Shown: positions 3,704 through 6,353 of the stretch, piece by piece
Layout of the letters: the number at the start of each line of letters is the position of its first letter
How positions within the stretch are numbered: the first letter of the stretch is position 1
Assembly: GCA_016840645.1 (NCBI GenBank)
Contig: JAEORY010000232.1
Coordinates: forward strand, 1-6,458
Source: Candidatus Borrarchaeota archaeon
Lineage (GTDB): Archaea; Asgardarchaeota; Sifarchaeia; Borrarchaeales; Borrarchaeaceae
Direction: 5' to 3'
Length of the DNA: 6,458 nucleotides
Notes under the pieces: generated by a model
Told to the model about the DNA's origin: nothing
Seen by the model: only the letters and a program-made list of their open reading frames with translations
Database searches by the model: none
Position numbers and translations under genes: made by a program

Positions 3704-4306
3704 TTAAGTTCTAAAATTCCAATTCTCATCTATACCATCATCATTATATATTACTCTCAATGCCCTCAGTACATTTTTATTCCAATTGAATTCAGAAGTG
3801 GCATAACATTTATATGGCATTGGAGCATTTTGACAAGAGTATTTTGTGTCTATATTATATCTGCCACCCTGACTAAGATGCCCTATTTTATTGACACCAC
3901 TCAGATATTTATTGTTCAGAGTGTCCATAATGGCTGTCCATCCTTCTAGTGGTGTGAAATATCCGACCCTCCATCCTCTGTCATTATTGCCAACATTTCC
4001 ATAATTATTCGGTGTGCTTAGATATTTGCCACATTGAGTATCTGCCCATGCTATTGCAAACACTACAGAGGGGGCTATATTTGCTTTCTGTGCTGTTTGT
4101 ATGATGTCCGGATATATTTCCTGCGTAGCAGTATCACAATGGGTAAAAACGAATTTTTTTAAGTTTTCTGACTTGTATAAAGTGGGGTGCATTTCTCCCT
4201 GTGGATTATATTCATCTGGGTAAAGAACGGAACTGTGACTTAGCACCATGTACAGAACCATGAACAGAACGAATATTGAAGGGGTTAGTTGTTTTTTTAT
4301 TTTCAT
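3704..4306 (-). CDS. Secreted or membrane-anchored glucosaminidase/muramidase-like lysis enzyme
   Basis: 200 residues. A Lys-rich start (MKIKKQ) precedes a hydrophobic helix at about residues 9-28, which is a signal peptide or signal anchor; the second would fit a signal-arrest-release endolysin. Residues 62-185 resemble lysozyme-like glucosaminidase domains: a helix with AIAWADTQCGKYLSTPNNYGNVGNNDRGW, then a TPLEGWTAIMDTLNNKYL segment and a C-terminal NWNKNVLRALRVIY helix. The likely acid position is Asp89 in WADTQCG, where many related enzymes carry Glu; whether Asp is normal in this branch is unclear. Cys57, Cys92, Cys158 and Cys167 could form disulfides after export. A small membrane-protein frame overlaps its first 95 bases. 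The start has no SD (ACTAAAAAATG). It lies in the - strand operon with other small genes. Assignment to a precise glycoside hydrolase family is not possible from sight. Confidence 0.7.
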   Translation of the reverse strand: MKIKKQLTPSIFVLFMVLYMVLSHSSVLYPDEYNPQGEMHPTLYKSENLKKFVFTHCDTATQEIYPDIIQTAQKANIAPSVVFAIAWADTQCGKYLSTPNNYGNVGNNDRGWRVGYFTPLEGWTAIMDTLNNKYLSGVNKIGHLSQGGRYNIDTKYSCQNAPMPYKCYATSEFNWNKNVLRALRVIYNDDGIDENWNFRT

Positions 4307-4382
4307 TTTTTAGTTTGTTAGAAAGATAAGTTAGTAATATGAATCCCACGAATGAGATTATAAAAGCATAAAGTATTTCCAT
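4212..4382 (-). CDS. Overlapping small membrane protein, 56 residues (holin- or spanin-like candidate)
   Basis: The start ATG at 4382 lies 19 bases after the stop of the preceding gene, in the context ACAAAAATG. The product has a short N-terminus, a clean transmembrane helix (about residues 4-20, LYAFIISFVGFILLTYL) and then a basic tail (NKLKNENKK) that continues inside the downstream enzyme gene in another frame, ending at TGA 4212. The overlap is 95 bases. Without this frame there would be a gap of about 95 bases in an otherwise tightly packed operon. A single-helix membrane protein immediately before an exported wall enzyme is the usual place for a holin or spanin. No homologue is recognised, and the C-terminal half encoded in the overlap could be dispensable. 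Confidence 0.55.
   Translation of the reverse strand: MEILYAFIISFVGFILLTYLSNKLKNENKKTTNPFNIRSVHGSVHGAKSQFRSLPR
4247..4270. repeat. 12-bp tandem duplication
   Basis: Two adjacent copies, CATGTACAGAAC (4247-4258) and CATGAACAGAAC (4259-4270), match at 11 of 12 positions. The length is a multiple of three, so both overlapping frames stay open. It encodes VLFM-VLYM in the hydrophobic helix of the wall enzyme and VHGS-VHGA in the overlapping small membrane protein. Confidence 0.8.
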
Positions 4383-4401
4383 TTTTGTTTTTGGTTAAGT
4401 T

Positions 4402-5622: not shown

Positions 5623-5892
5623 TTAACTGACATCTTCCATAAATTGTTTTAACTCAGGATCTTCCTCAACCTTTTCTTCAGTAGTCTTATAACTAGGGTT
5701 TTTACTGACCAAAGGTGCAATCTTCTTACCGATTTTAGCAGCCTTAGCACGTTCTATTGCTTTTTCCTGTGGGGTTTGATATTTCTCTTTGGGTTTTATC
5801 CCAAACACTTCTTCTGCTTCATAAACTGTAATATGTTTACAGTTCTGTCTGTATTTGAATGAGGGGCAAGAGCAGACTGGCTTTCCGTTCAC
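5623..5892 (-). CDS. SWIM-type zinc-finger protein; true start probably upstream by frameshift
   Basis: From the GTG at 5892 the product is 89 residues and contains a SWIM finger CxCx(8)CxH: CSCPSFKYRQNCKH, with Cys7, Cys9, Cys18 and His20 as zinc ligands, followed by a helical Lys/Glu-rich tail. SWIM fingers bind DNA or proteins. The GTG start looks wrong: the upstream codons in the same frame read KGKTGDYVITEV, which is the first strand expected of a SWIM domain, and they contain no ATG, GTG, TTG or CTG back to a TGA at 5979. Coding in this frame appears to begin at the A9 run in the end of the preceding gene, as a -1 frameshift extension (from 5958, 111 residues). A non-canonical ATA or ATT start, or a homopolymer sequencing error, are alternatives. 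Co-transcribed with the DUF669-like gene. Confidence 0.75.
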   Translation of the reverse strand: MNGKPVCSCPSFKYRQNCKHITVYEAEEVFGIKPKEKYQTPQEKAIERAKAAKIGKKIAPLVSKNPSYKTTEEKVEEDPELKQFMEDVS

Positions 5893-5945
5893 CTCTGTGA
5901 TTACATAATCACCAGTCTTGCCTTTAATCTTGCTTGTTTTTAACC

Positions 5946-6353
5946 TTATTCCTCGCTTTTTTTTTCCTCCTCTTCTTCAAATGGAGCTTCCTCCTCCTCT
6001 TCTTTTGGTTTACCTTCAATCTCTTCCAAAGACACTACATTACAATATTCATTGCCATTTGTAGCTTTGGTGATTTTAGTTGTGAATTTGACCATCTTAT
6101 TCACAAGCTTTTGTTCATCGAATTCACCCTCAGCTTTATCAAGTTTAACACCTGCAACAACTAATAAGTGATCGAATGATGGGAAACCTGGAGTGAAGAA
6201 ATGGCTGAAAAGTGAACCATCTTCTAAAGAAAATTCAACAATCAGCTTATCTGTTCCATCCGGATTATTAAAGATGCTTACTTTATGAATCACTGCTTCA
6301 TATTCTCCATCAGGAATCATAGTTTCTGCACCTCTTTTGTATGGGAAAGCCAT
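5946..6353 (-). CDS. DUF669-like single-stranded-DNA-binding candidate, short (0-frame) form
   Basis: 135 residues. The pattern IPDGEYEAVIHKVSIFNNPDGTDKLIVEFSLEDGS, then LLVVAGVKLD, then LVNKMVKFTTKITKATNGNEYCNVVSLEEI matches my memory of phage DUF669 proteins, which are thought to act as single-strand DNA-binding OB-fold-like factors. Residues 115-135 are an acidic tail (EEEEEAPFEEEEEKKSEE), as in SSB proteins, where such tails recruit partners. The start ATG at 6353 lies about 11 bases after a predicted transcription start and has no Shine-Dalgarno sequence (ATTTAATTATG). The tail ends three codons after an A9 run with a perfect A_AAA_AAA slippery site. The downstream SWIM frame has no normal start of its own, so this gene may also give a 243-residue fusion ending at 5623. 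The DUF669 assignment is by pattern only. Confidence 0.75.
   Translation of the reverse strand: MAFPYKRGAETMIPDGEYEAVIHKVSIFNNPDGTDKLIVEFSLEDGSLFSHFFTPGFPSFDHLLVVAGVKLDKAEGEFDEQKLVNKMVKFTTKITKATNGNEYCNVVSLEEIEGKPKEEEEEAPFEEEEEKKSEE
5957..5965 (-). other. A9 slippery run, candidate -1 programmed frameshift or transcriptional slippage site
   Basis: On the - strand nine consecutive A residues read in the 0 frame as GAA AAA AAA AGC, giving the ideal A_AAA_AAA heptamer (5964-5958). After a -1 slip, translation continues AAG CGA into the SWIM frame to TAA at 5625-5623. The 0-frame stop comes three codons later. Two SD-like GGAGG strings lie upstream; the nearer ends at 5966, only 2 bases before the P-site codon, closer than in E. 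coli dnaX. No obvious strong stem-loop follows. Confidence 0.6.

Follow-up and report, generated by a model that had tools for sequence, protein, structure and literature searches.

The run of nine adenines (A9) near the end of a phage single-strand DNA binding (SSB)-like gene is very probably a conserved programmed recoding site, by which one gene would yield both a short SSB with an acidic tail and a long SSB-SWIM protein. The gene resides in the window, that is, the whole stretch of 6,458 nucleotides analysed (contig JAEORY010000232.1), and its features are collected in Table 1. The reading is based on the sequences of eight junctions between an SSB frame and a SWIM frame: the -1 offset and the run are conserved, half of the junctions have no ATG, GTG or TTG before the zinc ligands, and the -1 frame is constrained. 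That the shift occurs, at what rate, which form dominates and which agent is responsible are matters of inference.

In the model proposed most expression would end a few nucleotides past the run, giving a short OB-fold SSB whose tail ends in KK-x. A fraction of expression would shift to the -1 frame within the run, translation going on into the SWIM zinc finger, and the long form would thereby exchange the last few SSB residues for about 67-116 residues carrying a CxC...CxH finger. The short tail and the finger may recruit different partners to phage ssDNA during recombination.

Table 1. Features of the SSB-SWIM junction in the window
Feature	Position	Strand	Remarks
SSB-like ORF, 135 aa	6353..5946	minus	short product, acidic tail ...APFEEEEEKKSEE
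-1-frame TGA	5979..5977	minus	upstream closure of the SWIM frame
AGGAGG	5966..5971	minus	directly against the A9 run; complete in just one of the eight junctions
A9 run, proposed slip site	5965..5957	minus	0-frame A_AAA_AAA inside (GAA AAA AAA AGC)
-1-frame SWIM extension	5623..5955	minus	110 codons plus stop, after junction codon AAG at 5958-5956
0-frame stop TAA	5946..5948	minus	8 nt 3' of the A9 run
Predicted RNA stem	5866..5933	minus	start 23 nt 3' of the run; z -2.5 for the complete 111-nt fold
GTG	5890..5892	minus	sole ATG/GTG/TTG of the -1 frame 5' of the ligands; last residue of the model's second strand
Zinc ligands CSCPSFKYRQNCKH (CxC...CxH)	5833..5874	minus	PF04434

The SSB-like gene and the finger in the window

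An earlier note on this DNA had labelled the upstream gene DUF669-like. The label is not supported, since no Pfam family matches the ORF at E <= 0.1; the gene is described instead by the PHROG profile phrog_378, 'single strand DNA binding protein' (E 2.3e-7), and by an OB-fold model. The predicted structure, obtained from 19 sequences (mean pLDDT 75, pTM 0.60), has the strand-helix order of the OB fold, and its best PDB match is PrgE, an OB-fold DNA-binding protein of pCF10 (E 1.2e-4). Profile match and predicted model together support the assignment of ORF 6353-5946 as a phage SSB-like protein with an OB fold.

The remaining parts of the proposal fared better. Coordinates derived anew place the SWIM frame exactly -1 to the SSB gene and A_AAA_AAA three codons 5' of its stop, the 3' end reading GAA AAA AAA AGC GAG GAA TAA, and a recount returns the same fusion of 132 plus 111 residues (243). 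On the minus strand the -1 frame stays open between 5976 and 5623, and the SWIM finger claimed for it matches PF04434 with 20.2 bits, against a cut-off of 19.6. Between the TGA at 5979 and the GTG at 5892 there is no ATG, GTG, TTG or CTG, as had been noticed; ATA, ATT and ATC are present there. In the predicted model of the SWIM piece (pLDDT about 70) strands span residues 6-11 and 16-22, and the GTG encodes residue 22; a fold search with this weak model (pTM 0.33) returned nothing meaningful.

The A9 at 5965..5957 is the only one of the window, both strands counted. Somewhere in such a window an A9 is commonplace by chance (mean 1.39 over 200 shuffles), and the weight of the evidence is carried by recurrence in relatives. 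The combination of A9, CxC and CKH at the spacing of the window was found in 0 of 200 shuffles.

Eight junctions share the offset and the run

SSB homology searches of viral contigs led to L001, L007, L008 and L013. L001 shows 69% identity, and a second contig, L002, is identical to it over the stretch compared; the SSB of L013 is 30% identical to that of L008. A Pfam SWIM search retrieved L034, a second junction on the contig of L007. L023 and L027 were picked up by two pattern scans that required A9 with CxC and CKH behind it, and are hence selected for the run. The total is eight junctions including the window, with seven distinct SWIM sequences, L007 and L034 having one in common. The pattern scans gave 12 loci, four of them already known, two new and true (L023 and L027), and six rejected (L019, L024, L025, L026, L028 and L029), which have no in-frame SWIM tied to the A-run. 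The number is a lower bound, as the contig of L013 was missed though L013 matches the pattern locally. All copies come from uncultured-virus assemblies, and the named contigs, L002 counted, span six IMG/VR dataset numbers.

The SSBs of the window, L013, L034, L007, L008 and L023 were scanned for phrog_378, L001 being outside this set; besides the window, matches were found in L013 (6.7e-6) and L034 (2.6e-4), and none at E <= 0.01 in L007, L008 and L023. A search of 50,697 phage records with the SSBs of the window, L008, L013, L023 and the database protein P0010 (those of L001, L007 and L034 were outside) gave no match for any but L023, whose SSB matches 35 records, the seven examined being Zobellviridae. 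Five SSBs of cultured Zobellviridae phages that match L023 (218-232 aa, with a C-terminal W) contain no CxC...CxH by eye. In the same records the SWIM piece of L027 has no match. The DNA of the window matches 41 phage records, and all 20 matches listed correspond to a YopX gene. Two scans of host genome contigs found no relative, and the matches to the terminase were all remote.

The SWIM frame is -1 relative to the SSB frame in 8/8 junctions, the run ends 1-8 nt before the SSB stop in all of them, and the CxCx(n)CxH motif is likewise present in each. The run is A9 in seven junctions and A10 in L034. It starts at codon phase 1 in the window, L001 and L034, phase 2 in L007, and phase 0 in L008, L013, L023 and L027. 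Wherever stretches of 4.4-10 kb were considered (window, L001, L007, L008, L013), it is the sole run of at least nine A's of that strand, and runs of at least nine T's are nil. PF04434 scores above the cut-off in the window, L001, L007 and L034 and below it in L013, L023 and L027; L008 gives no match. Five loci (L001, L008, L013, L023 and L027) have both a -1-frame TGA or TAA overlapping the start of the run and a 0-frame stop 3-5 nt 3' of it, and in these the change of frame is thus confined to the run. No ATG, GTG or TTG precedes the zinc ligands in the -1 frame of L007, L034, L013 and L027; the window, L001, L008 and L023 offer only a GTG, 9-30 nt 5' of the ligands.

According to the earlier note, the fusion would be supported by relatives that keep an A-run and the -1 offset, and 7/7 further junctions do so, L023 and L027 having been pre-selected for A9. 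It had also named what would count against the idea: a continuous SSB-SWIM gene is found neither in the eight junctions nor among 22 database SSBs, and in no junction does an ATG-started SWIM frame lie upstream of the finger. The offset and the A-run in relatives thus support, as far as sequences can, its notion that one gene gives a short acidic-tailed form and a long form with the finger. Recurrence in distant relatives suggests that the slip is deliberate.

Given the residues of the tail and the codon usage of the locus, the probability of at least nine A's is 0.16-0.49 per locus (seven loci computed), so the run is enriched just modestly over its lysine codons; the product for the four loci found by homology is 0.004, the loci being non-independent. 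The protein encoded by the -1 frame is also kept after the run, as in KKSIEAFNEVF (L008), KKTIEAFNEVF (L023), KKTIEVFEQVF (L027) and KKSIVEEVF (L013). From the run to CxC, differences peak at third positions of -1-frame codons in 9/9 pairs, which share sequences and are non-independent; counts at the three positions are 14, 7 and 24 for L023/L027, and a smaller excess, 20, 12 and 22, is seen for L008/L023. By this pattern the -1 frame downstream of the run is under coding constraint.

Two side observations concern these loci. One rejected candidate, L019:183-2386, is a 530-aa viral gene that ends TTA AAA AAA AAG CAA AGA TAA with A9; its -1 frame, open between 1751 and 2386, has its first ATG/GTG/TTG at 1841, and neither piece matches PHROG. 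Found by a pattern that requires A9, it is possibly an unrelated A9 recoding site. In L008 a tandem repeat at 4230-4398, with units of about GGCG(G/A)TGCTGTT, encodes (AVGG/AVGD)n in an ORF starting at 4009.

Database proteins

Two profile searches retrieved 22 SSB relatives of 114-161 aa. In-frame SSB-SWIM fusions are 0/22, in a search that scored 3,944 candidate proteins and in its second round admitted lengths up to about 260 aa. The common types of tail, KKK followed by a non-A codon, E-KK-S/T, and V/S-KK-N, correspond to the three codon phases of A9. Tails able to encode exactly A9 are found in 19/22 SSBs vs 2/93 control ORFs (at least 150 aa, mechanically listed). The three exceptions are P0004 (A8 at most), P0013 (A7 at most) and P0007 (none). 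A database search with SWIM returned six ORFs, one of which is the window's own; three share the V-N-G start that corresponds to the GTG, two start further on, at MAKQ, and one elsewhere. If recoding is at work, gene callers split SSB-SWIM genes and place the starts of the SWIM ORFs at internal codons.

Ribosome or RNA polymerase

Ribosome and RNA polymerase are about equally likely to be the slipping agent, and both may act. Pure programmed transcriptional realignment, in which RNA polymerase would add one A (or drop two) within A9 and thus produce mixed mRNAs, comes close to an even chance. The run is A9 or A10 whatever the codon phase, two of the eight junctions having been selected for A9, and it stays at 9-10 in phases 0, 1 and 2, though 8 or 7 A's would suffice for a ribosome in phases 1 and 2; this excess over the ribosomal minimum is limited to four junctions from about two lineages. 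According to PMC1088944, many bacterial genomes begin to show selection against A/T runs at a length of nine, and T. thermophilus dnaX slips at A9. Polymerase slippage needs no stimulator, and so fits L008, L013 and L027, which have no stable fold and a poor Shine-Dalgarno (SD)-like element. Yet PMC3711429 notes that shifts in both directions are frequent among families in which the polymerase is proven to slip, and here the direction is -1 only, in 8/8 junctions; the use of two directions is suggestive of polymerase, not obligatory.

Pure -1 programmed ribosomal frameshifting, in which tandem tRNAs on AAA-AAA would slip back one base on A_AAA_AAA and leave the mRNA unchanged, is credible to nearly the same degree. 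A conserved direction is a mark of ribosomal shifting in PMC3711429, and the constancy of -1 therefore speaks for the ribosome. A 0-frame A_AAA_AAA is present in 8/8 junctions, though any A9 implies it; that A_AAA_AAG occurs in none of them speaks, in turn, for the polymerase. Two database tails permit only A7-A8, which is sufficient for a ribosome.

Signs of stimulators are mixed. The SD-like element matches in 6/6 letters in the window, at 0 nt from the run, and in 5/6 letters in L001 (9 nt), L023 (8 nt) and L034 (3 nt), but just in 4/6 in L027 and 3/6 in L007, L008 and L013. Downstream folds are better than shuffles in the window (z -2.5), L001 (-4.3), L007 (-4.5) and L034 (-3.0), whereas no stable fold is predicted in L008 (+0.9), L013 (-0.2), L023 (-0.4) and L027 (-0.4). 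The main stem starts 20-23 nt after the run in the first four, and the first 51 nt downstream, taken alone, are no better than shuffles in 5/5 cases. The main stem is enclosed in L001 by a helix of 12 bp (nt 4 to 15 after the run) and in the window by 4 bp from nt 3. Covariation in the stem is slight, 1/15 consensus pairs being changed on both sides. Prokaryotic frameshift sites are sometimes without a detectable stimulator, as stated in PMC4066793.

Unlikely alternatives: separate genes and faulty runs

That the SWIM frame is a gene of its own, with GTG or a non-canonical ATA or ATT as start and coupled to termination of the SSB gene, is very unlikely. An in-frame GTG is available before CxC in the window, L001, L008 and L023, and three of the database SWIM ORFs have their starts at one common position, as a shared GTG start would give; yet half of the junctions lack ATG, GTG and TTG 5' of the ligands, and the residues of the -1 frame are conserved from the run onward. 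In addition, as both strands of the predicted model lie before or at the GTG of the window, a start there would sever the first strands and cost the finger its hairpin.

Least likely of all is that the run is an assembly error for a true A10, which would make one continuous gene, or phase-variable with on and off genomes, for, although homopolymers vary and L034 does have A10 (out of frame nonetheless because of its different codon phase), the same out-of-frame state in 8/8 junctions, on contigs from six dataset numbers, disfavours both sequencing error and phase variation, and none of the 22 database proteins is fused.

Exchange of SSB at the run

Programmed recoding, the preferred reading, gains a further aspect from L007 and L034, which lie near opposite ends of one 40.7-kb contig (40,683 bp, also carrying L018). 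Beginning at the A-run, the two are 99.7% identical over 1,632 bp; 5' of it no match exceeds 18 bp. The SSB proteins share 29% identity across 102 residues, and are hence distant homologues. We read the two, from their sequences, as alleles within one phage population; their presence on one contig is possibly due to a chimeric assembly. The contig of L027 starts inside the SSB gene, and the remaining 65 codons match the SSB profile phrog_1192 (2.8e-9) and, below the cut-off, gp32 (PF08804); this gp32-like piece, which matches three phage records, is followed by A9 and a -1 SWIM frame. L007/L034 and L027 thus indicate that differing types of SSB precede the same run plus finger, and the -1 offset survives the exchange of SSB at the run.

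A wider scenario, which on these sequences we consider conceivable and yet doubtful, is that the A-run is a joint in evolution as well as in expression: distantly related or unrelated ssDNA-binding modules (phrog_378-like, gp32-like) would be swapped before one SWIM finger, and each combination would be held at -1, and hence at a set ratio of tail form to finger form. The finger form would pair with a phage annealing protein resembling Rad51 paralogues, as the phage counterpart of partnerships between SWIM proteins and Rad51 paralogues.

Two further phage genes of composite or split make-up were met. In Pseudoalteromonas phage RIO-1 (L037:3025-3228) gene 23 lies directly 3' of the SSB gene, and its record states that it resembles the missing C-terminal segment of Pseudomonas phage PA11 gp15; SSB C-termini may thus be split in other phages too. 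Of the 860-aa ORF at L043:1469-4048, tblastn pairs about 64-452 with helicases and 453-839 with a phage large terminase. Both halves are also matched by PHROG terminase profiles, and the ORF is an apparent helicase-terminase fusion by sequence.

Function and comparison with known systems

Exonuclease genes are found near the SSB gene in L001, L007, L008 and L034, and VRR-NUC or resolvase-like genes near it in the window, L001 and L007. L013 has a Sak4-like gene nearby (phrog_124, 3.5e-45); the Sak4-like neighbour of L023 is weaker (7e-9) and is matched best by phrog_1366, of unknown function. It is from this neighbourhood that the proposed role in recombination derives.

dnaX and IS elements are familiar cases of recoding at A-runs, as PMC1088944 and PMC3711429 illustrate. 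Among the titles and opening lines of abstracts of the open-licence literature we found no phage SSB whose two C-termini result from recoding, and no such arrangement linking SWIM or SSB to phage frameshifting.

SSB tails recruit recombination partners. In phage HK620 the SSB associated with Sak4 depends on its six C-terminal residues for binding and stimulating Sak4 and for bringing it to ssDNA (PMC5928155). Since the shift proposed here would replace just that end, the two forms would by analogy recruit different partners to ssDNA. Among known systems the phrog_378 phage SSBs come close through the profile match, and the HK620 SSB through the Sak4-like genes near the SSB genes of L013 and L023; the comparison with HK620 is one of descriptions, and the abstract of PMC5928155 mentions neither a frameshift nor a SWIM finger.

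Sws1 of the Shu complex is likewise a SWIM finger protein in a recombination setting; here, in contrast, recoding would join the finger to an SSB, and the likeness is that of PF04434 alone. The partner of Sws1 is a Rad51 paralogue. Sak4 in turn is similar to RadB and Rad51 paralogues, as noted in PMC5928155. In IS630 and other IS elements out-of-frame ORFs are also fused at A9 (PMC1088944 and PMC3711429), but the product is a transposase, whereas here a finger would be added to a complete SSB.

With dnaX of T. thermophilus and E. coli the SSB gene shares a late A-run in a replication gene and two alternative C-termini. In E. coli dnaX the ribosome shifts at A_AAA_AAG. In Thermus the polymerase slips at A9, as PMC1088944 has it. 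The two systems differ in that the unshifted product of dnaX is the long one, while here it would be the short one, the shift adding a zinc finger; and dnaX encodes a clamp loader, here replaced by a phage SSB. If the model holds, a set share of the SSB molecules carries a zinc finger in place of the usual end; this would be a direct means of fixing stoichiometry on ssDNA, comparable to that of dnaX for the clamp loader.
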